Below, one piece after another: positions 4,714 to 59,963 of a stretch of 64,000 nucleotides of DNA (the stretch's first letter is position 1; the number at the start of each line of letters is the position of its first letter). The position numbers and the translations under genes were made by a program. The notes beneath the pieces were generated by a model. That model worked only from the letters and a program-made list of their open reading frames with translations, made no database searches and was not told where the DNA came from. Source of the stretch: Oxynema aestuarii AP17 (GTDB lineage Bacteria > Cyanobacteriota > Cyanobacteriia > Cyanobacteriales > Laspinemataceae); contig NZ_CP051167.1 of NCBI RefSeq assembly GCF_012295525.1, positions 2,666,001-2,730,000 on the forward strand, written 5' to 3'.

Positions 4714-5991
4714 ATGAGTTTTTATATCGCTCCGAAGTTTTTAGACAAATTAGCGGTTCACATTACCAAGAACTTTATGGATTTACCCGATGTTCGGGTT
4801 CCCTTAATTTTGGGAATTCACGGACGCAAGGGCGAGGGTAAATCCTTTCAGTGCGAACTGGTGTTCGAGAAAATGGGCGTCGAAGTCGTCCACATGTCGG
4901 CGGGAGAACTCGAAAGCCCGGACGCGGGGGATCCGGCGCGCTTGATTCGCCTGCGTTATCGCGAAGCTGCCGAACTGATTCGCACGCGCGGCAGAATGTC
5001 GGTGTTGATGATTAACGACCTCGACGCCGGGGCCGGACGATTCGATCGCTCCACCCAGTACACGGTCAACACCCAACTGGTCAACGGGACGTTGATGAAT
5101 ATTGCGGACAATCCGACCAACGTGCAGTTACCGGGGAGTTACGACGAGACTCCCCTGCACCGGGTCCCGATTATCGTCACCGGAAATGACTTTTCGACCC
5201 TCTACGAACCGTTAATCCGTGACGGTCGCATGGAGAAATTTTACTGGGAACCGACCCGGGACGATCGCATCGGTATCGTGTCGGGAATTTTTGAAGCGGA
5301 CGGACTCTCGCGCGCTCAAATCGAACAGTTAGTGGATACCTTCCCAGAGCAATCGATCGACTTTTTCGGCGCCTTGCGATCGCGCTTGTACGACGAACAA
5401 GTGCGTAAATTCATCGACCAAATCGGCTTAAATCGGGTCTCGTCGCGCTTGCTCAAAAGTACGGAAGGGGCGCCGAAGATCGAGCGACCGAACTTTAATC
5501 TAGAACATTTGCTCGAAATCGGTCATCTGATGTTCGACGAACAAGACCGAGTGCGTCGGATGCGCCTGTCGCGGGAGTACATGAGAATTGACGATCGCGA
5601 CGACGACGAGGAAATCCGGCCCGCGCGATCGCCGCAAGCGGGGAAAGCGGTAGGGCGCAACCGCACCGAACGCAGCCAACCGGAAGCCACACCCCGGGCG
5701 AATAACCATTCGGCTAACGAGGGAACCTTACCTTCAGAGATTGCCGAACCGTTGCAACAACTAGCGATCGCCGGATATAACATCGGCATCGAATTCGTGG
5801 ATAAACGCCGTTTCCAGACCAATTCCTGGAAAACTTGCGCCTGTATCGCCAGCGATCGCCACGAGGAAGCGGCCCGGGAATTAGCCAATTGTTTGCAAAC
5901 CCATCCCAACGACTACGTGCGGATTGTCGGGATCGAACCGCAAGCGAAACGCCGGGTCAGCGAGACGATCGTTCAACGTCCCAACCGCTAA
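4714..5991 (+). CDS. rca: Rubisco activase with C-terminal small-subunit-like domain
   Basis: AAA+ chaperone that removes inhibitory sugar phosphates from Rubisco. Residues ~1-290 carry the AAA+ core: Walker A GIHGRKGEGKS, Walker B MINDLDAG and a RDGRMEKF arginine-finger region. A charged linker (~290-345) leads to a ~85-residue domain (PLQQLAIAGYNIGIEFVDKRRF...) that matches the Rubisco small-subunit-like repeats of CcmM. In cyanobacteria such an SSUL tail is known to recruit the activase to Rubisco condensates and carboxysomes. The start at 4714 gives the canonical MSFYIAPKFLDKLAVHITKN. No ccm or rbc genes are next to it. Confidence 0.93.
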   Translation: MSFYIAPKFLDKLAVHITKNFMDLPDVRVPLILGIHGRKGEGKSFQCELVFEKMGVEVVHMSAGELESPDAGDPARLIRLRYREAAELIRTRGRMSVLMINDLDAGAGRFDRSTQYTVNTQLVNGTLMNIADNPTNVQLPGSYDETPLHRVPIIVTGNDFSTLYEPLIRDGRMEKFYWEPTRDDRIGIVSGIFEADGLSRAQIEQLVDTFPEQSIDFFGALRSRLYDEQVRKFIDQIGLNRVSSRLLKSTEGAPKIERPNFNLEHLLEIGHLMFDEQDRVRRMRLSREYMRIDDRDDDEEIRPARSPQAGKAVGRNRTERSQPEATPRANNHSANEGTLPSEIAEPLQQLAIAGYNIGIEFVDKRRFQTNSWKTCACIASDRHEEAARELANCLQTHPNDYVRIVGIEPQAKRRVSETIVQRPNR

Positions 5992-6005: not shown

Positions 6006-6851
6006 CTATTGAACGCTGGTGACTTCTCCCAGGCGGGTAAAGCGGATCTCGATCCGACGGCGGGTTTCGTCGGCGTTGCGGTTGATATCCGCAAATCCGC
6101 CACTGGGAGAGACCAGTTGCGCGGCGGAATAGGCGCGAAATTCCAACCCTTGCAAGCGTTTTTCGTTTTTCTGAATATTTTGTAAAATCTGCACCACCGC
6201 CAGCGATCGCATCAACCCCAAATCCGCATTAGAACCGGGAACCAGTTGACTGACCGCCGTATTGCCACGGGCCACTTGTTCCAGGGAGCGATCGAGATTG
6301 CTGGCGCTGCTTTCGTTCGGTTGTCCGTCGGTATGGCCGATAATTTCTACTACATCAATTTGATATTGTTTGGCGTTCGCTTCGATTTGCGGGACTAACT
6401 GCGATCGCACGTAACTTTCTAAAGCATCGGGAACTTGGGCGCTCCCCGACTCAAACCGATAGGAACCCGTATCTCGAATCACGATGATTGGCGGTGCTTT
6501 GGGCGTTTCTAGCTCTTCTTGCAAGCGTCCCTTCAAATCTTCCGTTTGAGCGTTGAGCGCTTGATTTCGGGCAGCCAGGGCTTGATTTTGTTGCGTTAAA
6601 ATGCCGATTCTTTGTTCCGCCGACGCCGCGCGATCGCGCTGTTTGTCCAAACTATTTTCTAACCCGACAAGCTGTTCTCGCAAGGCGGCTTCGGTTTCGC
6701 GCATACTCGAAATCGAAACCAACGGTTTAATAATTGCCAGCAATAACAGAAAACTGAGAATCATAAACGCATTGGACATTAAGTCCGTAAATGCGGGCCA
6801 GATATCAAAATCTTCTTGAATTTCTTCCAATCGCGATCGCCCGCGTACCAT
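6006..6851 (-). CDS. MotB/OmpA-like membrane protein with coiled coil
   Basis: 281 residues. A short cytoplasmic N-terminus with DIWPAFTDLMSNAFMI is followed by one transmembrane helix (~27-47), a coiled coil with repeated Q/A/L heptads (~50-115), and an OmpA-type peptidoglycan-binding domain with HTDGQPN (~175) and the closing RRIEIRFTR. The F/W-DLM motif before the helix is typical of MotB-type proteins, where it precedes the channel aspartate. No MotA/ZorA-like partner is adjacent. Upstream on the same strand, 144 bases away, lies an AAA+ ATPase gene, so the two may form an operon. Role unknown; a Zorya-like or cell-envelope sensor role is possible but unproven. Confidence 0.7.
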   Translation of the reverse strand: MVRGRSRLEEIQEDFDIWPAFTDLMSNAFMILSFLLLLAIIKPLVSISSMRETEAALREQLVGLENSLDKQRDRAASAEQRIGILTQQNQALAARNQALNAQTEDLKGRLQEELETPKAPPIIVIRDTGSYRFESGSAQVPDALESYVRSQLVPQIEANAKQYQIDVVEIIGHTDGQPNESSASNLDRSLEQVARGNTAVSQLVPGSNADLGLMRSLAVVQILQNIQKNEKRLQGLEFRAYSAAQLVSPSGGFADINRNADETRRRIEIRFTRLGEVTSVQ

Positions 6852-6995
6852 TCGCCCTTCCTCCCGGTGAAAATTATCGTAACTTGACCCAGTTTTTAAC
6901 TTGGGTTAGATCGACTTCCGCTTAAAACATAAGTTTCTTCAAATAGGATAACAAATCCGCTATTTTTCCCGGACTCGGCCCACAAACAGACGGGT

Positions 6996-8222
6996 TCAGA
7001 CAAAACGATGGGTAAATTCGCAGGTTAAATCGATTCTCCCTTTGCGTAACATCGCCGGATCGAGTCGTTCGGTGGTGTTACAAGTCATCAAAAAGACGAT
7101 TTTCTGGGTTTCTTGGAGGCGGCGATCGTCGATGATACTTTGATAAAGGGTTCCATCGAGCAAACTTAAAATATGCTCGGTTCGATTGCTTTGTTGGGCG
7201 ATTTCGGTAGAGCGATCTTGCGCCAAGTTATCGGCTTCGTTGATAATAATACAAATTCGCTCTAAATAATTGGGCGGAATAAAGTTTTCTACGCCGTCGC
7301 GATCGAGAATAAAAATCGTATAGCCGAGAGGGACTAAAATTTCTTTAGCCACCGCTTGAGTCCACGCCGTTTTACCCGTTCCCGGAACCCCATGAACGAG
7401 AATCGCCAACTGATTTTGGTTAAAAATCGCCTGTTGCACCGCATCGGTGAAAATCTGAATATCTTGAGGGAAAGAACGAATTTCAAACTCGCTATTAAGT
7501 TGTCCGACGCGACTGTGATAGCCACTTAACATGACCGCAAGATTGTAAGTTGCTTTATTAATTAATGACCCGAGTTCTCGGGAAATCAGGGTATAGCGTT
7601 TTTGCGAACGTGCCCCAACTTGCATTTGTCCGAGATAGTCTATTTGCAACCAAATATCGTGGGATTGCCAATAAGCGAAAATGGTTCCCATGGTTTGCAG
7701 GCGTTCCCAACTGACAAAGCGTTCGACGGGATAGTAAAAACTTCGGTCTTGATAAACTTGAGTAATGAGATTGGGGCGGTCTAATAAATCTAAGATCTTA
7801 AAAACGGTAATTTCCTGAAAGCGACGCAATACGTAGTCAATAGGAATGCTATCTCGACTGACAATTTGTTCCGTGGGAGTGTCGATACTGAGGGTGTCAC
7901 ATTCTCGATAGTTGGGTGTGGGTGGGGTCGGGGTGATGTAATCCCAAAATTCATCGAGATCGCCTCGGGTATAATCGGAAAAAAGATTAAAAATATTCGC
8001 CCACCAAGCATAATCTTTCCGTCCGAGGGCGTCGGCAACATCGCTAATCACATCCAGGGTTTTTTTGGTGAGTTCAAAGGTATCGTTACAGCAAAGATGA
8101 TAGAAAAAATTCCAGTCAAATTCTCGATAAAGCGGTCGCCAACCTGCACCGAGTAATCCCTGTTCTGGGGACGAGTTGGCGCGATCGCGATCGTGGGAGT
8201 TCCCAAAATATCCGGTTCCCAT
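6996..8222 (-). CDS. AAA+ ATPase of unknown role
   Basis: 408 residues. The first ~245 residues have no recognised domain. The C-terminal part is an AAA+ module: Walker A GVPGTGKTA, Walker B ICIIINEADN, sensor-1 MTCNTT and an RKGRID arginine-finger motif, most like BCS1/FtsH-type or ClpX-like classic AAA proteins. There is no transmembrane segment. A well-formed promoter with two GTAGTA repeats lies 180 bases upstream on the same strand and is nearly identical to the promoters of the tRNA/Y-RNA island at 50.6 and 56.4 kb. The MotB/OmpA-like gene follows downstream. Its partner substrate is unknown. Confidence 0.75.
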   Translation of the reverse strand: MGTGYFGNSHDRDRANSSPEQGLLGAGWRPLYREFDWNFFYHLCCNDTFELTKKTLDVISDVADALGRKDYAWWANIFNLFSDYTRGDLDEFWDYITPTPPTPNYRECDTLSIDTPTEQIVSRDSIPIDYVLRRFQEITVFKILDLLDRPNLITQVYQDRSFYYPVERFVSWERLQTMGTIFAYWQSHDIWLQIDYLGQMQVGARSQKRYTLISRELGSLINKATYNLAVMLSGYHSRVGQLNSEFEIRSFPQDIQIFTDAVQQAIFNQNQLAILVHGVPGTGKTAWTQAVAKEILVPLGYTIFILDRDGVENFIPPNYLERICIIINEADNLAQDRSTEIAQQSNRTEHILSLLDGTLYQSIIDDRRLQETQKIVFLMTCNTTERLDPAMLRKGRIDLTCEFTHRFV

Positions 8223-8400
8223 AAGTTGTATTGTTTCTGAGGAATAGCGATAGAAAAAAAGAGATTTTAAACCCGCTCAATTTAAAGCGGTTAACGCGAT
8301 AAAATCGGTTGTATTTAGGATCGATTTCGATCGCGGGTTGGGATGAAGGCGATCGCCCGAGACCCGATCGATTGACCCGATTGAGTCGGAATCGATCTTT

Positions 8401-8429
8401 ATACTACATAAATACTACACAATTGTCAA
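8401..8429 (-). promoter_or_regulatory. Sigma70-type promoter with GTAGTA direct repeats
   Basis: On the minus strand: TTGACA (8424-8429), 17-base spacer, TAGTAT (8401-8406). The spacer carries a second GTAGTA 11 bases before the one overlapping the -10, so two direct repeats face the same way. The -35, spacer length, -10 and repeat phasing match the promoters at 50635 and 56440. It would transcribe the AAA+ gene ending at 6996. Confidence 0.75.
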
Positions 8430-8533
8430 GTCTGCGGATGGTAAGCTGAAGGCGCGATCGCCCGGACTGGCGCCCCAATCCCGGGGTATAGTGAATAGTT
8501 AAACCCAATTCATTGCGGGTGGAGGAGGAGAAA

Positions 8534-9448
8534 ATGCAATTATCCGAACCCGAAATCGATCGCTTTTACCGTCTTTATTATTCTTTATTAATTGATGTCA
8601 ACCAAAGAATTAATGGATTTGAACAATTACGCGAACTGGAGGATTTAGTTGATTTTACGATCGCAGAAATTGAAATTCTCCGCCAACAGCTTTATCAACA
8701 TCCGGAATTATTCGATCGCTTCCTCGAAGAGAATCCCCGGGATTTTTCTTCAGAAGATTTAAACTTGGTTCGCAGTTGGAAAACTTTTATTAAAGGAAAA
8801 TTCTATATTTTTGGATACCGAGAACAGTACACCCTCTTTTTAGTCGATCGCAAACCGAGTAAAGTTTATGGGGTGTTAGCTTTAGATATTCCATTTCGCG
8901 AGTTAATTGGAAGTGCGTTACCCGCGATCGTCGAAACCGTGTTGCTTCCTTTTGGCGATCGCATTATTTACGACGGTATTTTACAATCTTATCCATTTTA
9001 TTTCGGCTGTAGCATTCGCGGAACGCTTCAAGATTCTTATCAAGAAGCGGAATCTAAATTTGGGATTATTACCCGTTTAGACGAACCCGTTCGCCAAAAA
9101 AGGGAAGAGTACAGACCGCAAGCAGAAATCGCGGCGATGAGTGACGAAGCCTTAATCGACTATTATATCGAACACGAGGGCGATCGCGATCGATATCGCG
9201 AACAACTCGAAACCGCGATCGCCAATAATACTAAACTAGCCAAACAGTATTATCAAAAAATAGGTCAATATAGCGCCGATCGCGTCGCTAAAAATTATAA
9301 GAAAATTGGCATCAAAAAAGCCTGGATTGCTTTTTACGAAGAGACGGCGATCGCCACCGGAACCACAAAAGCAGAACTCGAAGGAATTTTAAAAAAACTT
9401 CTGTCCGTACAAAAACGGAAAAATGTTTATATTTATCGACTAAAATAA
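8534..9448 (+). CDS. Hypothetical protein, divergent from the AAA+ ATPase
   Basis: 304 residues from the ATG at 8534, chosen because GGAGGAGGAG lies just upstream; a TTG seven codons earlier is the alternative. The protein is soluble and rich in charged residues and isoleucine, with no transmembrane segment or signal peptide. It has a mixed alpha/beta middle (FYIFGYREQYTLFLVDRKPSKVYGV) and a strongly helical C-terminus ending in basic residues. I do not recognise the family. It is divergent from the AAA+/MotB-like pair and may share a regulatory region with it. Confidence 0.6.
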   Translation: MQLSEPEIDRFYRLYYSLLIDVNQRINGFEQLRELEDLVDFTIAEIEILRQQLYQHPELFDRFLEENPRDFSSEDLNLVRSWKTFIKGKFYIFGYREQYTLFLVDRKPSKVYGVLALDIPFRELIGSALPAIVETVLLPFGDRIIYDGILQSYPFYFGCSIRGTLQDSYQEAESKFGIITRLDEPVRQKREEYRPQAEIAAMSDEALIDYYIEHEGDRDRYREQLETAIANNTKLAKQYYQKIGQYSADRVAKNYKKIGIKKAWIAFYEETAIATGTTKAELEGILKKLLSVQKRKNVYIYRLK

Positions 9449-45168: not shown

Positions 45169-45504
45169 CTAACTCGCCATACTATCTATGCTCAACGGAA
45201 CCATTTCGCCGTGTACGGTCAGTCCTAACAACATCGGCTCTTGCGGTCGGATAGTTTTGCCTGTAATCACGCAACGTTCCTCTCGTTGGGCTGTCGCTTC
45301 GAGGCTGGCGCGGATATCGGACGGTGAAAACGAGGGTCGATAATGACCGGATTTCTGCTGGACGTAATTCCAAAGGACATCGCGAATGAGGGCTTGGTAG
45401 CCCCGATCGCCTGCAATGGCTTTGAGATTGTCTTTTAGCTCTCTCTCCAAGCGGATGCTGGTGACTTCCATTTCGGTGGTCGGAGTTCGAGTAATTGCGG
45501 GCAT
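45169..45504 (-). CDS. CopG-like cyanobacterial protein
   Basis: 111 residues. EMEVTSIRLERELKDNLKAIAGDRGYQALIRDVLWNYVQQK reads as a ribbon-helix-helix DNA-binding motif. The rest contains CVITGKTIRP, a possible half zinc site. Probably a regulator. GAGGAAAA is just upstream of the start. It is divergent from the HNH gene. Confidence 0.65.
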   Translation of the reverse strand: MPAITRTPTTEMEVTSIRLERELKDNLKAIAGDRGYQALIRDVLWNYVQQKSGHYRPSFSPSDIRASLEATAQREERCVITGKTIRPQEPMLLGLTVHGEMVPLSIDSMAS

Positions 45505-45938
45505 AATTTTTTCCTCAAATGGGTAGACATCTCTGTAATATCAGTGTAGTATGTTTACTGTAGATTTCAAGTCATTCCCTTCAAAACTTTTTACTGTGAA
45601 GCTTTCAACCGCCCTCTCTATGCAACGATATCTCGCCGACGCCTTTGACTGGAGTATCGACCTCGCGCGCCGAGTCGATGCCGTCGTGGCGATCGCCAGA
45701 GATGGTTTTGCGAGTGGGTGTGATTCCTGCGCAGATGTGCTAGAGATTGGAGAAGGTTTCGTATGTTTAGCCCCGGGGAACCCCGAGGGCAATGGTGATA
45801 GAACGGGTGTAAGAAGCGGGAGGTACGCCTCAACTTGATGTCGTACCTGGAATAGATAAAACAAAACCATAAACGGATTTTGTGGCCCCCGCTTCCTCCA
45901 GCATGAGAAGTGGGGGTCATTTAATAAGGAGTTCAGCC
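45505..45938. other. Intergenic region with a hairpin upstream of the HNH gene
   Basis: 434 bases. A GTAGTA-type sequence (TGTAGTATG at 45545-45553) lies here without a good TTGACA box. GCCCCCGCTTC and GAAGTGGGGGTC (about 45885-45918) form a stable hairpin 20 bases before the HNH start. The short frame at 45551-45838 lacks family features. Confidence 0.4.
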
Positions 45939-50634: not shown

Positions 50635-50663
50635 TTGACACGCATGTAGTACGTATGTAGTAT
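50635..50663 (+). promoter_or_regulatory. Promoter of the tRNA array
   Basis: TTGACA (50635-50640), a 17-base spacer, TAGTAT (50658-50663), with GTAGTA also in the spacer as a direct repeat. It is preceded by CCCC, as is the promoter at 56440. No gene other than the tRNAs lies within reach. Confidence 0.8.
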
Positions 50664-50887: not shown

Positions 50888-50961
50888 GGGGGTGTAACTC
50901 AGATGTGTAGAGTGCTTGTCTGTCGAACAAGAAGTCGCGGGTTCGAGTCCCGTCATCCCCG
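50888..50961 (+). tRNA. tRNA-Asp (GUC)
   Basis: Acceptor GGGGGTG/CATCCCC, anticodon loop CTGTCGA, T arm GCGGG-TTCGAGT-CCCGT, discriminator G as expected for Asp. No encoded CCA. First gene of the array. Confidence 0.9.
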
Positions 50962-50967
50962 TTCGAT

Positions 50968-51042
50968 AGTCCCGTAGGCGAACGAATAAGCCGTCAGCCC
51001 CTCAAGCTGGAGATGCGGGTTTAAATCCCGTCGGGACTTCCA
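50968..51042 (+). tRNA. tRNA-Glu-like (CUC)
   Basis: Acceptor AGTCCCG/CGGGACT, D stem GGC/GCC, anticodon loop CCCTCAA, T loop TTTAAAT. It is related to the Glu(UUC) gene at 51196. Odd points: C instead of U at position 33, discriminator T, and an encoded CCA that its array neighbours lack. Confidence 0.7.
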
Positions 51043-51113
51043 ATTTTTTACTATTCAGGAGTAGAAAGCTCATCTCAGCCTTTTCGTGTCGATTTCATCG
51101 ATGAAAAGGTCGT

Positions 51114-51187
51114 GCGGGGATGGTGTAACAGGCAAACATCTCGGTCTCCAAAACCGAAGATTCTGAGTTCGACTCTCAGTCCCCGTG
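51114..51187 (+). tRNA. tRNA-Trp (CCA)
   Basis: Acceptor GCGGGGA/TCCCCGT, anticodon loop CTCCAAA, T arm CTGAG-TTCGACT-CTCAG, discriminator G. No CCA encoded. Confidence 0.88.
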
Positions 51188-51195
51188 TGTCATAA

Positions 51196-51269
51196 GGTGC
51201 CGTAGGCAAATTGGTAAAGCCCCCGATCTTTCAAGTCGGCGTTTGCGGGTTCAAATCCCGTCGGCACTG
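51196..51269 (+). tRNA. tRNA-Glu (UUC)
   Basis: Acceptor GGTGCCG/CGGCACT, D stem GGC/GCC, anticodon loop CTTTCAA, T arm GCGGG-TTCAAAT-CCCGT, discriminator G. Confidence 0.9.
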
Positions 51270-51338
51270 TTTTAATCTCTGTTTAAATAAATTTTTCAAA
51301 ATGATTTTAATAAGCTTTTAAAAAGAGTGTCAATTTTT

Positions 51339-51425
51339 GGGTCGGTATCCAAATTGGTGACGGAGCTTGACTGTAAATCAAGTGCTTTTATGCTAAACGT
51401 GGGGGTTCGAGTCCCTCCCGACCCT
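51339..51425 (+). tRNA. tRNA-Tyr (GUA), class II
   Basis: Acceptor GGGTCGG/CCGACCC, anticodon loop CTGTAAA, an 18-base variable arm, T arm GGGGG-TTCGAGT-CCCTC. The discriminator is T rather than the usual A. Confidence 0.88.
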
Positions 51426-51429
51426 TTGG

Positions 51430-51518
51430 GGAGAAGTGGCCGAGGGGTTGAAGGCGCTTTCCTGCTAAGAAAGAACGGTTTTAAACAGCCGTCGAGGGTT
51501 CAAATCCCTCCTTCTCCG
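51430..51518 (+). tRNA. tRNA-Ser (GCU)
   Basis: Acceptor GGAGAAG/CTTCTCC, anticodon loop CTGCTAA, long variable arm, T arm GAGGG-TTCAAAT-CCCTC, discriminator G. Canonical class II. Confidence 0.92.
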
Positions 51519-51573
51519 TTTTAATTTTGTTTTAATTTTGTTTTGATTTTGTTTTAATTTTGTTTTGATTTTT
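51519..51573. repeat. Five tandem copies of an 11-bp T-rich unit
   Basis: TTTTAATTTTG or TTTTGATTTTG is repeated five times without gaps between tRNA-Ser and tRNA-Phe. It would give a U-rich, unstructured spacer in the transcript. Confidence 0.9.
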
Positions 51574-51580
51574 CATATTT

Positions 51581-51654
51581 CCCCCGGTAGCTCAGTTGGT
51601 AGTAGCGCCTGTTTGAAGAACAGGAGGTCGTCGGTTCGATTCCGACTTGGGGGG
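51581..51654 (+). tRNA. tRNA-Phe (GAA)
   Basis: Acceptor CCCCCGG/TTGGGGG with two G-U pairs, anticodon loop TTGAAGA, T arm GTCGG-TTCGATT-CCGAC. Discriminator G and position 37 G are unusual for Phe. Confidence 0.8.
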
Positions 51655-51661
51655 CTGTTGA

Positions 51662-51734
51662 TGCCGGATGGACGATGGGTAAGTCGCCGTGACTCTGAAT
51701 CACGGAGAGGTTGGTTCGATCCCAACTCCGGCAG
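51662..51734 (+). tRNA. tRNA-Gln (CUG)
   Basis: Acceptor TGCCGGA/TCCGGCA with the U1-A72 pair typical of Gln, anticodon loop CTCTGAA, T arm GTTGG-TTCGATC-CCAAC, discriminator G. Confidence 0.88.
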
Positions 51735-51738
51735 TGAT

Positions 51739-51813
51739 TGGGGAGTAGGCGACGTTGGCAAAGCCACCCGACTTTGGATCGGGATCTCGCGGGTTCGATT
51801 CCTGCCTCCCCAG
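51739..51813 (+). tRNA. tRNA-Gln (UUG)
   Basis: Acceptor TGGGGAG/CTCCCCA with U1-A72, anticodon loop CTTTGGA, T arm GCGGG-TTCGATT-CCTGC, discriminator G. Confidence 0.9.
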
Positions 51814-51849
51814 TTAGCTCACTAAATGAGTAATAATCGTACTCACATT

Positions 51850-51922
51850 GGGTGATTGGCAGAGCGGCTGATGCATCGGGCTTTTAACCCGATTTAGGTG
51901 GGTTCGACTCCTACATCACCCC
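51850..51922 (+). tRNA. tRNA-Lys (UUU)
   Basis: Acceptor GGGTGAT/ATCACCC, anticodon loop CTTTTAA, T arm GTGGG-TTCGACT-CCTAC. Discriminator C is unusual for Lys. Confidence 0.85.
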
Positions 51923-51930
51923 CCTATTTT

Positions 51931-52005
51931 GCTCCTGTGGCGCAATTGGCAGACGCGACAGCCTTAAAATCTGTTTGTTTGCGGGTTCGAGTCCCGCCAG
52001 GAGTA
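51931..52005 (+). tRNA. tRNA-Leu-like (UAA) without long variable arm
   Basis: Acceptor GCTCCTG/CAGGAGT, Leu-like D arm (GCGCAATTGGCAGACGC), anticodon loop CTTAAAA, T arm GCGGG-TTCGAGT-CCCGC, discriminator A. At 75 bases it has only a 6-base variable region, whereas bacterial tRNA-Leu is class II. Confidence 0.75.
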
Positions 52006-52009
52006 TCGC

Positions 52010-52082
52010 CGGGATGTAATTCAGTGGCCAGAAGCCTTGGTTTGGGGCCAAGGAGTCGTTGGTTCGAGTCCAACCATCCCGA
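52010..52082 (+). tRNA. tRNA-Pro (UGG)
   Basis: Acceptor CGGGATG/CATCCCG with the C1-G72 pair of Pro, anticodon loop TTTGGGG, T arm GTTGG-TTCGAGT-CCAAC, discriminator A. Confidence 0.9.
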
Positions 52083-52088
52083 CTGTTT

Positions 52089-52162
52089 ACCCCTGTGACG
52101 CAATTGGAAGACGTGACCGACTCAGACTCGGTAGTTTGCAGGTTCGAGTCCTGTCAGGGGTA
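52089..52162 (+). tRNA. tRNA-Leu-like (CAG) without long variable arm
   Basis: Acceptor ACCCCTG/CAGGGGT, D arm like the Leu(UAA) gene, anticodon loop CTCAGAC, variable region AGTTT, discriminator A. 74 bases, class I shape. Confidence 0.75.
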
Positions 52163-52165
52163 TGA

Positions 52166-52240
52166 GCTCTCGTGGCGGAAGTGGAAGACGCGCCAGACTA
52201 AGGATCTGGTTTTTTGCAGGTTCGAGTCCTGCCGGGAGTA
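52166..52240 (+). tRNA. tRNA-Leu-like (AAG) without long variable arm
   Basis: Acceptor GCTCTCG/CGGGAGT, Leu-like D arm, anticodon loop CTAAGGA, variable region of six Ts, discriminator A. A34 anticodons other than Arg ACG are rare in bacteria. Confidence 0.75.
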
Positions 52241-52276
52241 TTTTATATAGATGTAGGCGTTTTTGGAGTTGTGAGA

Positions 52277-53053
52277 ATGAAGCGCGTTGCGATCGCCCAA
52301 GAAACAGTAAAAATCCTTGAAACAGGTCACTATTTTTATGAAGCTCGCCCGGTTGAAATTGCTCGGGAGTTAAGCGAATGCTTGGAAGGCACAAAATATT
52401 ATCATCCATATTTTTTAGCTCAAATTGAACGAGAGATTTTAGCCAGATCTCCGAGTTTTTCGCAAACTCTTTTTGAACTCAAAAATGAGACAACTTTGAT
52501 GGGAGCGGAGCGATTGGCGCGATCGCAAAATTTTGAAAAAATAGGCATTCTCAATTTCGCTTCCGCGAGAAATCCTGGGGGCGGCTTCCTCAACGGCGCT
52601 CAAGCTCAAGAGGAAAGTTTAGCTCGCAGTTCTGGTTTATATAAAAGTTTATTAAAGGCTCAAGACTATTATGATTTTCATCGGTCTTATCGATCGCTTT
52701 TGTATTCCAATCGAATGGTTTATTCTCCCGGTTGTCCCGTGTTCCGAAAAGATGACGGAACACTGTTGGCGCAACCTTATCGAGTTGATTTTATAACCAG
52801 TCCGGCTCCCAATGCAGGGGCGATCGCCCGACAACAACCGGAAGCCGTAGCACAAATTATTCCGGTATTGCGCGATCGCGCCTCCAAAGTGTTGAGTTTG
52901 GCCGCTTACCATCACTGTGATGCTTTAGTATTGGGGGCGTGGGGCTGTGGGGTGTTCCGCAACGATCCGGCGATCGTCGCCCAAATTTTCGCCGATTTTC
53001 TCTTATCCAGAACTCGATTTTGGGGCAGGTTTAAAATTTGTTTTCAGTCTTAG
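52277..53053 (+). CDS. PARG-like (TIGR02452) protein, C-terminus apparently frameshifted
   Basis: 258 residues from ATG 52277. Microbial-type poly(ADP-ribose) glycohydrolase/macrodomain relative: N-terminal helical region, then NFASARNPGGGFLNGAQAQEESLARSS, the GGG...QEE catalytic signature, and VLGAWGCGVFRNDP, the family's late conserved loop. Such enzymes remove ADP-ribose chains from protein or nucleic acid. The frame stops at 53053 after GRFKICFQS, but the -1 frame continues with LFSVLDSSKNRKIYREFEKAF to a TAA at 53118, which looks like the expected family tail. A single-base indel, or less likely frameshifting, is implied. It lies inside the tRNA array, 37 bases after tRNA-Leu(AAG). Confidence 0.8.
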   Translation: MKRVAIAQETVKILETGHYFYEARPVEIARELSECLEGTKYYHPYFLAQIEREILARSPSFSQTLFELKNETTLMGAERLARSQNFEKIGILNFASARNPGGGFLNGAQAQEESLARSSGLYKSLLKAQDYYDFHRSYRSLLYSNRMVYSPGCPVFRKDDGTLLAQPYRVDFITSPAPNAGAIARQQPEAVAQIIPVLRDRASKVLSLAAYHHCDALVLGAWGCGVFRNDPAIVAQIFADFLLSRTRFWGRFKICFQS

Positions 53054-53204
53054 ATTCGAGTAAAAATCGAAAAATTTATCGAGAGTTTGAAAAGGCATTT
53101 TCAAAGAATTTACAGTAACTTTTCGCTCCAATTCCACGATCTTAAGGGTAAAACTGGATCTAAAACTTGGGTTAAATTCAAAGGTAAAATAAACCATAAA
53201 ACAA

Positions 53205-53275
53205 GCGAATATGGTGTAGCGGTAGCATGAGAGCCTTCCAAGCTCTGGGGACGAGTTCAAATCTCGTTATTCGCT
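53205..53275 (+). tRNA. tRNA-Gly (UCC)
   Basis: Acceptor GCGAATA/TATTCGC, anticodon loop CTTCCAA, T arm ACGAG-TTCAAAT-CTCGT, discriminator T as for Gly. 71 bases. Confidence 0.9.
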
Positions 53276-53292
53276 CTTTTTTTATCCAGCTA

Positions 53293-53322
53293 TTTCTCTG
53301 CGGGTGTTTTCTCTGCGGGTGT
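53293..53322. repeat. 15-bp tandem duplication at the 5' end of tRNA-Gly(GCC)
   Basis: TTTCTCTGCGGGTGT occurs twice without spacing; the second copy includes the first eight bases of the tRNA-Gly(GCC) gene. Confidence 0.9.
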
Positions 53323-53385
53323 GATGTAGTGGTAGCATCAAAGCTTGCCAAGTTTTGCGCGCGAGTTCGAGTCTCGCCACTCGCT
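53315..53385 (+). tRNA. tRNA-Gly (GCC)
   Basis: Acceptor GCGGGTG/CACTCGC, anticodon loop TTGCCAA, T arm GCGAG-TTCGAGT-CTCGC, discriminator T. Confidence 0.9.
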
Positions 53386-53389
53386 TTTT

Positions 53390-53461
53390 AGTCCTGTAGC
53401 TCAACGGTAGAGTGCTTGCCTTACAAGCAAGATGTTATCGGTTCAAATCCGATCGGGACTA
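53390..53461 (+). tRNA. tRNA-Val (UAC)
   Basis: Acceptor AGTCCTG/CGGGACT, D arm GCTC/GAGT, anticodon loop CTTACAA, T arm ATCGG-TTCAAAT-CCGAT, discriminator A. Confidence 0.9.
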
Positions 53462-53470
53462 TTGATTAAA

Positions 53471-53544
53471 GGGAGTATAACTCAAGGGAATAGAGTCCCG
53501 ATCTTCTAAATCGGTTCGTGTAGGTTCGAGTCCTACCACTCCCG
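53471..53544 (+). tRNA. tRNA-Arg (UCU)
   Basis: Acceptor GGGAGTA/CACTCCC with one A-C mismatch at 7-66, anticodon loop CTTCTAA, T arm GTAGG-TTCGAGT-CCTAC, discriminator G. Confidence 0.85.
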
Positions 53545-53609
53545 TTTTTAAAATCACACAGGAGGTGTACTTTCACTGTTTTTAATTAACTGCCAAAACC
53601 GCGATCGCA

Positions 53610-53824
53610 CCGTAGCGTGACCCAACTTTTGGAGCTTACATACTGAGTACGAGAGGAACGGTAACACTGTTAGATACAGTGGGCGCGTGAGAACGAGGAG
53701 TGCGAAGAACCCGACAGGTGGGCCTAGAGGTAGCCATCCTTTAAAGAGTGTGTAAAAACTCATCGGCGGAGTCCCTCTAGTAACTGAGAGAGCGCACAAC
53801 GCTCCCCTAACTTGCACGCTACGG
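53610..53824 (+). ncRNA. Y-stem RNA a: carries 23S rRNA GTPase-centre look-alikes
   Basis: Outer stem CCGTAGCGTG (53610-53619) pairs exactly with CACGCTACGG (53815-53824). An internal loop with CCCAAC and AACTTG follows, then GGAGC/GCTCC, then TTACATAC, the plan shared with four other RNAs at 57.2-58.4 kb. Inside are: AGTACGAGAGGAAC (53646-53659), the sarcin-ricin loop sequence, closed by TACTG/CGGTA; CAGTGGGCGCGTGAGAACGAGG (53677-53698), like 23S helix 94; and 53711-53766, which matches the 58-base L11-binding GTPase-associated centre at roughly three positions in four (from memory of E. coli 1051-1108), with the key adenines in UAGA and GUAA kept and its stems CCGA/TCGG and GAGT/ACTC preserved by different bases. 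Confidence 0.75.
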
Positions 53825-53867
53825 GCGATTGCCTTTAACCCATCGGCGATCGTTAAAAGTATAATTT

Positions 53868-53941
53868 GGGGTCATAGCTCAACGGGCTAGAGCGCCTGCC
53901 TTGCAAGCAGGAGGTTATGGGTTCGAGTCCCATTGATTCCA
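53868..53941 (+). tRNA. tRNA-Ala (UGC)
   Basis: Acceptor GGGGTCA/TGATTCC, anticodon loop CTTGCAA, T arm ATGGG-TTCGAGT-CCCAT, discriminator A. The G3-U70 pair is replaced by a G3-C/G4-U arrangement, so Ala identity may be weakened. Confidence 0.88.
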
Positions 53942-53944
53942 TCT

Positions 53945-54019
53945 GGTGTCTGAAGTCAAAGCGGTCGAGACGCTGGTTTGTGGAACCAGTCCTAGCGGGT
54001 TCGAGTCCCGTCAGACACC
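53945..54019 (+). tRNA. tRNA-His (GUG)
   Basis: Eight-pair acceptor including the encoded G(-1) opposite C73, the His identity pair; anticodon loop TTGTGGA; T arm GCGGG-TTCGAGT-CCCGT. Confidence 0.92.
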
Positions 54020-54025
54020 CCTAAT

Positions 54026-54108
54026 GGAAGATGCCGCTAAATGGTTGGCAACTGGTCTTGAAAACCAGGGTACGGGTCACCGTAGGGGTTCGATTCCTCC
54101 ATCTTCCT
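54026..54108 (+). tRNA. tRNA-Ser (UGA)
   Basis: Acceptor GGAAGAT/ATCTTCC, anticodon loop CTTGAAA, long variable arm with GGTACGGGTCACCGTA, T loop TTCGATT. The T stem has one mismatch. Confidence 0.85.
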
Positions 54109-54112
54109 TGAA

Positions 54113-54184
54113 CCACCGAAGGCCGAAAAGTGAGGCACCGTGCTGATAACGCGGGGATAGGAGGGGCAGTACCTCCTCGGTGGA
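54113..54184 (+). tRNA. tRNA-Ile-like (GAU) with aberrant T loop
   Basis: Acceptor CCACCGA/TCGGTGG, D stem GCC/GGC, anticodon loop CTGATAA, T stem GGAGG/CCTCC but loop GGCAGTA in place of TTCRANY. The anticodon-stem pairing is weak (CCGTG/CGCGG). It could not make the normal D-T loop contacts. Confidence 0.6.
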
Positions 54185-54187
54185 TTG

Positions 54188-54257
54188 CCCTCTGCCAGGG
54201 GATTTGGCACTGACGCTACGAACGTCGGTTGTGGTGGTTCGACTCCATCCAGAGGGG
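54188..54257 (+). tRNA. tRNA-Arg-like (ACG)
   Basis: Acceptor CCCTCTG/CAGAGGG, anticodon loop CTACGAA, T arm GGTGG-TTCGACT-CCATC, discriminator G. The D arm is short and irregular (CCAGGGGATTTGG). Confidence 0.7.
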
Positions 54258-54261
54258 CTAT

Positions 54262-54333
54262 TCCTCGGTAGCTCAATGGTAGAGCGTCCGGCTGTTAACC
54301 GGAGGGTTCTTGGTTCGAGTCCAAGCCGGGGAG
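54262..54333 (+). tRNA. tRNA-Asn (GUU)
   Basis: Acceptor TCCTCGG/CCGGGGA, D stem GCTC/GAGC, anticodon loop CTGTTAA, T arm CTTGG-TTCGAGT-CCAAG, discriminator G. Last tRNA of the first unit. Confidence 0.92.
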
Positions 54334-56439: not shown

Positions 56440-56468
56440 TTGACAATTGTGTAGTATTTTTGTAGTAT
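56440..56468 (+). promoter_or_regulatory. Promoter of the Y-RNA/Ro60 unit
   Basis: TTGACA (56440-56445), a 17-base spacer, TAGTAT (56463-56468), with GTAGTA repeated in the spacer. Same design, spacing and flanking CCCC as the array promoter at 50635, and the first ten spacer bases are identical to those of the 8.4-kb promoter. Confidence 0.8.
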
Positions 56469-56924: not shown

Positions 56925-57137
<213 letters not shown>

Positions 57138-57175: not shown

Positions 57176-57319
57176 ACTTCCGCGCCCCGACCGATAAAGC
57201 TTACATCCATAACTGATTTATCCTCAGTTTGTAGGTTCGACTCCTACCACCTCCGCCTCGGAGGTGTCGCTCATCGGTAAGAGCAACAATACTAACGCTT
57301 TATTAACTCGCGCGGGAGT
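57176..57319 (+). ncRNA. Y-stem RNA b: YrlA-like with a circularly permuted tRNA module
   Basis: Outer stem ACTTCCGCGC (57176-57185) pairs with GCGCGGGAGT (57310-57319) with one G-U. The internal loop has CCCGAC facing AACTC; the second stem is ATAAAGC/GCTTTAT (57194-57200, 57297-57303). The module reads in this order: anticodon-type hairpin (57211-57229), T arm GTAGG-TTCGACT-CCTAC (57231-57247), acceptor 3' strand CACCTCCG (57248-57255), loop CCT, acceptor 5' strand CGGAGGTG (57259-57266), then TC and D arm GCTC-ATCGGTAA-GAGC (57269-57284). That is a tRNA cut between positions 26 and 27 and rejoined through the ends, the arrangement described for YrlA RNAs bound by bacterial Ro60. Confidence 0.75.
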
Positions 57320-57337
57320 CCATCCAATCCCCTTAAA

Positions 57338-57471
<134 letters not shown>

Positions 57472-57547
57472 CTCCCCGAAATGAAAAGCGCGCAGTATCA
57501 TAAGAGATCGTGACAGCCAAAAATTCATTGAGGGGAGCATTCAATTT

Positions 57548-58009
57548 ATGGCACGCAAACCGATTCAAACGGCATTTTATACCTTAGTTGTCGTTCGTTC
57601 CGGCGATCGCTTTCTACTCGTGCAAGAGTGCAAGCACAATCAACAGTGGTACTTTCCCGCCGGACGAGTCGAAGCGGGAGAAACCTTCGTCGAAGCGGCG
57701 CGACGAGAAGCCCTCGAAGAAGCAGGAATTCCGATTATTATTGACGGTATCTTGAGGATGGAACATACGCCCCTCGGAAATAACGCCCGAGTTCGTATGA
57801 TTTTTGTCGCCCGTCCCGAGGACGATACACCTCCGAAAACCGTACCCGACAATCAATCGTTAGGAGCAAGTTGGTTTTCTTGGAAAGATTTAGAAAAATT
57901 GTCATTGCGATCGCCCCACGTTAAAGAAATCCTCAATTATTTAGCCCACGGCGGTCGGATTTATCCTCTCAATTTAATTAGCTTTGAAGGCGCGCCCTAT
58001 AAAATTTGA
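57548..58009 (+). CDS. Nudix hydrolase
   Basis: 153 residues. Nudix box GRVEAGETFVEAARREALEEAGI fits GX5EX7REUXEEXGU exactly. The N-terminus QTAFYTLVVVRSGDRFLLVQECKHNQQWYFPAG is typical. Substrates could be ADP-ribose, capped RNA ends (NAD or Ap4-type) or nucleotides. It is encoded between Y-stem RNAs c and d, upstream of the Ro60-like gene. Rsr and Nudix proteins are linked in some bacteria, which supports an RNA-related role. Confidence 0.92.
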   Translation: MARKPIQTAFYTLVVVRSGDRFLLVQECKHNQQWYFPAGRVEAGETFVEAARREALEEAGIPIIIDGILRMEHTPLGNNARVRMIFVARPEDDTPPKTVPDNQSLGASWFSWKDLEKLSLRSPHVKEILNYLAHGGRIYPLNLISFEGAPYKI

Positions 58010-58047
58010 GTTTTTCGATTTTATCTTAAATTCTGATTGAATCTTTT

Positions 58048-58194
<147 letters not shown>

Positions 58195-58308
58195 TTTTTA
58201 GATTTTAGATTGAGAGAAGCCTCACTTTATTGCGGGTAAGATGCCCGCACCATAGCTTTGTGAGCTATTCTTTTCTGAGTCTGAAGTTTTTCTACAAAAT
58301 CATGCAGT

Positions 58309-58437
58309 TGTCGCCGCGCCCCAACCGGAAAGGCTTACATACTCCTCCAAACTAAAGGTGTGCTTTGGAGAAAGCGCTGCAAGCCCGAACCTCAATAGCG
58401 GGTCGATGCCTTCCTCACTCGTGCGGCACAGTTTTTT
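58309..58437 (+). ncRNA. Y-stem RNA e, just upstream of the Ro60-like gene
   Basis: TGT, a bulged C, then GCCGCGC (58309-58319) pair with GTGCGGCACA (58421-58430), followed by GTTTTTT. Internal loop CCCAAC opposite CACTC; second stem GAAAGGC/GCCTTCC with one mismatch; then CTTACATAC. The enclosed part has a hairpin CTCCAAA/TTTGGAG and a CCCG/CGGG hairpin but no recognisable tRNA. The T-run gives a terminator-like 3' end. A Y RNA next to the Ro60 gene is the usual arrangement in bacteria. Confidence 0.65.

Positions 58438-58454: not shown

Positions 58455-59963
<1,509 letters not shown>

Follow-up and report, generated by a model that had tools for sequence, protein, structure and literature searches.

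We analysed a 64,000-nucleotide stretch of DNA (the window), part of the single-contig, 6.36-Mb chromosome of the cyanobacterium Oxynema aestuarii AP17, with attention to three neighbouring genes. An AAA+ ATPase gene (6996-8222, minus strand) encodes 408 amino acids and matches Pfam PF00004 (E=1e-12). Separated from it by 145 bp on the same strand is a MotB/OmpA-like gene (6006-6851, minus strand; 281 amino acids), hereafter MotB, whose best PADLOC model is ZorB (E=4e-10); that scan covered the three proteins of the locus and seven proteins of relatives. A gene with no assigned function (8534-9448, plus strand; 304 amino acids counted from ATG 8534) is divergent to the AAA+ gene. An earlier note made from the DNA letters (the original prediction) had described this trio, and we confirmed the genes' positions and strands along with the PF00004 and ZorB matches. 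Judged from sequence, the three genes and their promoter are real, yet they are not one conserved system. Instead, the AAA+ gene probably belongs to the regulon through which TrcR answers translational stress in cyanobacteria and has a role in RNA repair, and MotB is probably an unrelated passenger.

Upstream of the AAA+ gene lies a promoter-like site on the minus strand (8401-8429), comprising TTGACA (8429-8424), a 17-nt spacer and TAGTAT (8406-8401), with 10 of 12 consensus bases. It is the top scorer among five promoter-like sites between 6600 and 8700, a number not above chance (3.9 expected). A predicted TrcR operator, GTAGTATTTATGTAGTA (8402-8418, minus strand), covers part of the spacer and overlaps the -10 element. 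Exact GTAGTA-N5-GTAGTA pairs occur four times in the genome and never in the backward control. Three of the four are in the window: 5' of the AAA+ gene, of a tRNA array (predicted operator at 50646-50663, plus strand; first tRNA at 50888) and of an island with Ro60-type, NUDIX and tRNA genes (56451-56468, plus strand). The GTAGTA hexamer is itself enriched across the window, with 19 observed and 6.4 expected. A GTAGTA promoter common to the AAA+ gene and the Ro60-type island, as originally proposed, is borne out by the exact pair at both, which matches the TrcR operator. Of the two genes described as lying under this promoter, MotB would do so only given read-through across the 145-bp gap, the minus strand of which showed neither a promoter-like nor a terminator-like site. 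The divergent gene lies on the side from which the promoter points away.

TrcR is known from Anabaena sp. PCC 7120, where sections of the paper on it describe a ribbon-helix-helix repressor of a stress-induced tRNA operon (PMC10272220). Its targets, silent until translation is blocked, include a 26-tRNA operon, rtcB, a TIGR02452 gene, an ABC transporter gene and others; the AAA ATPase operon all0263-all0261 is also under its control (PMC10272220). Loss of TrcR raises all0263, annotated 'AAA family ATPase', 23.8-fold; TrcR shifts the promoter of all0263 DNA, and the threonine dehydratase gene all0262 follows all0263 (PMC10272220). The Anabaena TrcR site, 5'-TGTAGTAT-3', sits over the trn -10 box, and trcR, whose promoter has a motif of its own, is divergent from a small open reading frame (ORF) and an HNH gene (PMC10272220). 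In the window, the predicted operator at the AAA+ gene likewise lies over the -10 TAGTAT, a placement that fits membership of the regulon as judged by TGTAGTAT-type sites. Because the shared GTAGTA operator matches the Anabaena operator, we infer a translational-stress role for the AAA+ gene. Of the suggested stress or defence role, the stress half is supported in this way only, and the defence half is not supported.

A candidate for the repressor is also present. Predicted trcR (45169-45504, minus strand; 111 amino acids; ribbon-helix-helix-like by eye) points away from a small ORF and a gene of the HNH type, the layout seen in Anabaena, and the predicted TrcR site GTAATATCAGTGTAGTA (45535-45551, plus strand; one mismatch) lies between them and resembles the trcR promoter motif reported in PMC10272220. 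Its assignment as trcR comes from layout, size and promoter motif rather than protein comparison; the protein had no Pfam or NCBIfam match. By analogy with Anabaena, its product would be TrcR, would bind the predicted operators and would allow their induction in the host. In contrast to Anabaena, ~50 kb of chromosome hold the AAA+ gene together with predicted trcR, the tRNA array and a Ro60-type island.

Across the phylum, the operator pattern goes with TrcR relatives. Our sample for presence and absence of AAA+, MotB, divergent-gene, TrcR and KptA relatives was 244 cyanobacterial genomes, in which the host genus is represented by one genome and relatives of predicted trcR occur in 72. Of 55 exact GTAGTAN5GTAGTAT sites in these genomes, those 72 account for 48 (10 in the backward control) and the others for seven (16 in the control; p=1e-5). 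We examined 40 of the 51 sites outside the host genome: eight precede tRNA arrays (7-29 tRNAs), three rtcB, two an ABC transporter gene and one a VWA/TROVE-like gene. Behind six more lie islands in which a conserved 66-amino-acid ORF accompanies one to three tRNA-like genes, and one of these islands (L260) encodes a protein 71% identical to the Ro60-type protein of the window. Upstream of AAA+ operons, scored on the correct strand over 110 loci, at least 12 of 16 operator positions are matched in 28 loci versus 5.1 expected, and at least 14 in 10 loci versus 1.0, with expectations derived from upstream regions of other genes. Perfect operators precede an RNA ligase-phosphatase-AAA+ operon (L060) and a KptA-AAA+ operon (L036), and a near-perfect one precedes KptA-AAA+-NADAR (L044). 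At L060 (5248-8332), the TrcR-type operator is followed by the RNA ligase (PF09414), a low-molecular-weight phosphatase (PF01451) and then the AAA+ gene.

Full-length relatives of the AAA+ protein (E<=1.1e-150) occur in 39 of the 244 genomes, and all 14 genomes of the host's family hold one. Any match at all is found in 136 genomes, the remaining ones, among the matches listed, matching the common AAA core only. Among the named relatives listed, the closest (69-71% identity) belong to Oscillatoria sp. HE19RPO, Phormidium pseudopriestleyi and Laspinema species. A TrcR relative accompanies the AAA+ gene in 39 of 39 genomes; within the order, it is present in 37 of 37 AAA+ genomes versus 27 of 38 others (p=4e-4).

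What recurs beside the AAA+ gene is RNA repair. Of 114 distinct AAA+ loci, 61 have KptA/Tpt1 as a same-strand neighbour no more than 3 kb away (46 upstream, 15 downstream). Rarer neighbours at that distance are threonine dehydratase (8/114, downstream), RNA ligase PF09414 (7/114) and NADAR (2/114). KptA/Tpt1 (PF01885) is likewise enriched by genome, in 20 of 39 with the AAA+ gene versus 10 of 205 without (p=8.5e-12), and the association persists within the order (19/37 versus 4/38, p=1.5e-4). The eight threonine dehydratase loci repeat the layout of all0263-all0262, the AAA ATPase target described for Anabaena alongside the tRNA array, rtcB, TIGR02452 and ABC transporter targets (PMC10272220); unlike Anabaena, the host AAA+ gene is followed by MotB and not by threonine dehydratase or KptA. 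We found no earlier report of the AAA+-KptA linkage in the open-access literature searched, and nothing there on all0263 beyond the TrcR paper (PMC10272220). From the linkage to KptA and RNA ligase and the company of the regulon, the AAA+ protein would have a role in RNA repair.

MotB tells a different story. Its N-terminal segment WPAFTDLMSNAFMILSF is present with a weak OmpA-like domain behind it (PF00691, E=0.002, 19 bits, below the cut-off of 27.2). The W..F.D pattern of the channel segment, whose Asp carries ions according to work on MotB and ZorB, is found in 34 of 39 MotB-like proteins, and FTDLMSNAF in two more. Relatives occur in 44 of the 244 genomes. At 38 other such loci, a ZorA-like gene is directly upstream in 34 (31 of cluster c3 and three of cluster c39, representatives of both matching PADLOC ZorA models) and elsewhere in the locus in three (L103, L110, L116); none was recognised in L109. 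In the host's family, ZorA is just upstream in 12 of 12 loci fetched. The host's own ZorA-like gene (C1:2362398-2363630; 67% identity to the family ZorAs) lies beside recR, 308 kb from MotB, and the gene next to it on the MotB side is on the opposite strand. The statement that no MotA-like gene is present is therefore true locally and not for the genome.

Pairing of MotB with the AAA+ gene is peculiar to the window, the only one of 114 distinct loci where they adjoin; at the 38 other AAA+ loci of the 244-genome sample, MotB is beside the AAA+ gene in none. Within the order, presence of the two is not associated (20/37 versus 23/38, p=0.64). The proposed check for conserved co-occurrence thus went against AAA+ with MotB, whose relatives in 39 and 44 genomes are adjacent in none of the other loci sampled. 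MotB is best read, from these comparisons, as an orphaned ZorB-type half joined to the AAA+ gene by rearrangement. Zorya at this locus was rejected, ZorA not being adjacent (ZorC, ZorD and ZorE were not searched for). Also rejected was the idea that MotB carries its own conserved promoter from the former ZorA site: its upstream DNA gave no convincing alignment with that of 11 of the 12 family relatives (L228 was missed by the motif filter).

In its resemblances MotB is like ZorB of Zorya and MotB of MotA/MotB: the host protein matches ZorB models and relatives pair with ZorA-like proteins. Unlike Zorya, ZorA is not beside the host MotB, and a Tubulin_2-type protein (cluster c4; Pfam PF13809 on one representative) is encoded in the operon at 23 of the 38 relatives' loci. 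As an observation in its own right, L092 and other MotB-relative loci show an operon of VWA-like (by eye), Tubulin_2 (PF13809), ZorA-like and ZorB-like genes that occurs in many cyanobacteria; the tubulin passages of PMC7159879 do not mention MotA/MotB.

The divergent gene probably starts at ATG 8534 rather than TTG 8513, its relatives beginning at the ATG 8534 residue. At E<=1 its protein matched neither Pfam nor PADLOC models and gave a single NCBIfam match (E=0.12), and a model of its fold (predicted local distance difference test score, pLDDT, 59) had no PDB match at E<=0.001. It stands beside the AAA+ gene in eight of the 114 loci, the window and close relatives, and has relatives in 2 of 244 genomes; the pairing suggested for these two genes is conserved, although among close relatives only. 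With MotB at 1/114 and the divergent gene at 8/114, neighbour counts led us to reject the trio as a conserved island.

Relatives of the Laspinema type indicate how this neighbourhood may have arisen. There the divergent gene stands head to head with the AAA+ gene, which is followed by KptA, a gene g3 and a ThiF-like gene; on the opposite side lie a gene g9 and what looks by eye like a pentapeptide-repeat gene. In the host, KptA, an extra NUDIX gene, g3, the ThiF-like gene, g9 and a pentapeptide-repeat-like gene are still together at C1:2443567, and the divergent gene and AAA+ gene sit in the window beside MotB, away from that block. The simplest reading of these arrangements is that the divergent gene-AAA+ block and MotB each moved and were then joined here.

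The AAA+ family itself has unusual features. Walker A is GxPGTGKT, and Walker B reads NE, never the usual DE, in 127 of 127 loci read (duplicates included). Among the 126 proteins with an RxGR(I/V/F)D motif, the chain ends 10 residues after it in 125 and 11 in one; so few residues after this arginine-finger region leave no room for a C-terminal lid domain. An AlphaFold model built on 14 sequences gave Bcs1 as the first Foldseek match (E=6e-11). With VIA-align, whose rows mostly reflect the generic AAA core, Bacillus subtilis YjoB gave the longest alignment (233 residues, Z 9.5, root-mean-square deviation 5.2), spanning residues 100-408 and so covering a beta-rich domain as well as the AAA core. 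Set against this likeness to Bcs1 and YjoB are the missing lid room and the NE Walker B, along with the low confidence of the model, and a Pfam search gave no BCS1_N match at E<=1. Going by this weak structural similarity, the protein may be a chaperone-like ring ATPase, perhaps Bcs1/YjoB-like without a lid.

We propose the following course of events. In unstressed cells, TrcR bound to the two GTAGTA repeats over the -10 box would silence the TTGACA-17-TAGTAT promoter. Once the elongation step of translation is blocked, TrcR would fall, and the AAA+ protein would be produced alongside the tRNA array and the Ro60-type protein. Most likely it would remodel a damaged RNA-protein or repair-enzyme assembly, with KptA/Tpt1, RNA ligase and RtcB. 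MotB would be half of a ZorA/ZorB-type inner-membrane channel, parted from ZorA by a lineage-specific rearrangement and perhaps now transcribed by read-through from the TrcR promoter, and the divergent gene would travel with the AAA+ gene in a narrow clade. In its boldest form, which we put forward tentatively and with some doubt, the lid-less, NE-Walker-B AAA+ protein, with its links to KptA/Tpt1, RNA ligase and NADAR genes, could be an undescribed ATP-driven component of bacterial RNA repair. Under translational stress it would be induced through TrcR, and it would strip or remodel complexes of damaged tRNA or ribosomes, allowing KptA, RtcB and Ro60 to act. What is read from the DNA here is the operator match, the family distribution, the conservation of neighbours and the split of MotB from ZorA.

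Several observations weigh against placing the AAA+ gene in a TrcR regulon for RNA repair. Equating the window genes with Anabaena trcR and all0263 draws on layout, the trcR promoter motif and threonine dehydratase (8/114 loci), without protein comparison. When two mismatches are allowed, the operator pattern is not above control in the host's own genome (44 sites versus 75), and given this result we limited own-genome sites to exact or one-mismatch matches. Half of the examined exact sites (20/40) precede none of the expected genes within the stretch read; four of these (L280, L281, L283, L284) precede similar proteins of ~250 amino acids. The operator is also patchy, with 82 of 110 AAA+ loci scoring below 12/16, and close named relatives lack a strong site (L131 scores 11; L132, L133, L134 and L136 are unlisted at 11 or above). 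Since the AAA+ loci are related, their counts are non-independent, and the operator consensus derives partly from the window sites, so these figures are descriptive. KptA lies away from the AAA+ gene in the host genome and was not found in 19 of the 39 AAA+ genomes. The structural comparison, finally, starts from a model of low confidence (pLDDT 62.5): template-modelling scores to Bcs1 are only 0.23-0.33, and NSF chains come level with or above YjoB in VIA-align (Z up to 10.1) over ~150 residues of generic AAA core.

The first of these points lends a little weight to the view that the AAA+ protein is a general chaperone of the Bcs1/YjoB kind, with TrcR control incidental and confined to some species. 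The family is wider than the strong operators (28/110 loci at 12/16 or more), and Bcs1, YjoB and other AAA proteins are what the structure searches matched. We nevertheless consider this unlikely, because every one of the 39 AAA+ genomes has a TrcR relative, AAA+ operons carry operator-like sites upstream at about five times the control frequency, and linkage to KptA is strong. Far less probable is that AAA+ and MotB work as a pair in this lineage, in a membrane machine induced by stress and either Zorya-like or envelope-remodelling; MotB and the distant ZorA would make up its channel, and the AAA+ protein would act as cytoplasmic effector. The two genes do adjoin on one strand, with a 145-bp gap in which no promoter- or terminator-like sites were found on their strand; MotB retains its FTDLMSNAFMILSF segment; and the ZorA-like gene elsewhere in the genome makes a complete channel possible. 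Yet they are neighbours in only one of the 114 distinct loci, MotB follows ZorA in every family locus fetched, and their presence is unassociated within the order; the host genus is covered by a single genome.

An anti-phage system, either Zorya or one built on a TRIP13-like AAA+ protein of the cyclic-oligonucleotide-based antiphage signalling system (CBASS), seems to us the least credible account. Besides the ZorB match, PADLOC gave a partial TRIP13 match to the AAA+ protein (E=1.5e-7), whose best stretch is residues 322-396, AAA core only (HORMA and CD-NTase were not searched for). No ZorA-like gene was found in the 114 AAA+ loci (ZorC, ZorD and ZorE were not searched for), and the recurrent AAA+ neighbours are RNA-repair genes. 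Zorya-like defence at this locus is not supported, and a ZorB/MotB-type gene beside an AAA+ gene need not signal a Zorya system.

The proposed stress regulon can be compared with other RNA-repair systems. Ro60 and Y RNA are linked to RtcR-type RNA repair operons. RtcR-regulated rtcBA RNA repair operons occur in proteobacteria (PMC7790460). Like them, the cyanobacterial genes would be RNA repair genes under regulation that respond to damaged RNA or to stress on translation; unlike those operons, a ribbon-helix-helix-type repressor would replace the activator RtcR, and KptA and RNA ligase are the neighbours. KptA/Tpt1 occurs in many bacteria without the spliced tRNA introns that explain the yeast enzyme. 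Its purpose in bacteria becomes testable in Anabaena through a conserved AAA+ partner gene and a repressor tied to stalled translation. We regard the locus as partly explained: an uncharacterised member of the AAA+ family, probably within a stress regulon already known, with a testable link to KptA and beside a displaced motor subunit.

The other operator-bearing regions offered further observations. Rfam identified 22 tRNA genes over 50888-54333 and 57368-58165 (both plus strand), among them the array that follows the second operator; inside this array, as in relative L258, lies a gene of PARG type (PF10021; 52214-53053). In sequence, the Ro60/TROVE-like protein (58515-59963, plus strand) weakly matches two solved TROVE-domain proteins (E=1.6e-4); no TROVE model matched in Pfam or NCBIfam, Pfam giving VWA models only. 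Within its island (~57180-58340, plus strand), GCGCCCC...CTTACATA repeats surround tRNA-like sequences by eye and are possibly Y-RNA-like. A 66-amino-acid ORF (56937-57137, plus strand) has counterparts behind a TrcR-type operator in L259, L260, L261, L263, L265 and L266. The fourth exact operator of the genome (L001) precedes a gene of 457 amino acids and its neighbour of 322 (7022-9437, minus strand); the larger protein had no Pfam match and neither had an NCBIfam match, and a relative of the larger gene (L262:279-1613; 57% identity) also follows an operator. RtcB with an intein (PF14890) is encoded behind TrcR-type operators at L273:4357-6102 and L274:4304-6076 (both minus strand), and at L286 the same operator precedes a shorter RtcB ORF. 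Convergent to MotB in the window is a RuBisCO activase gene (4714-5991, plus strand) with a C-terminal RuBisCO small-subunit-like domain (PF21228, PF00101).

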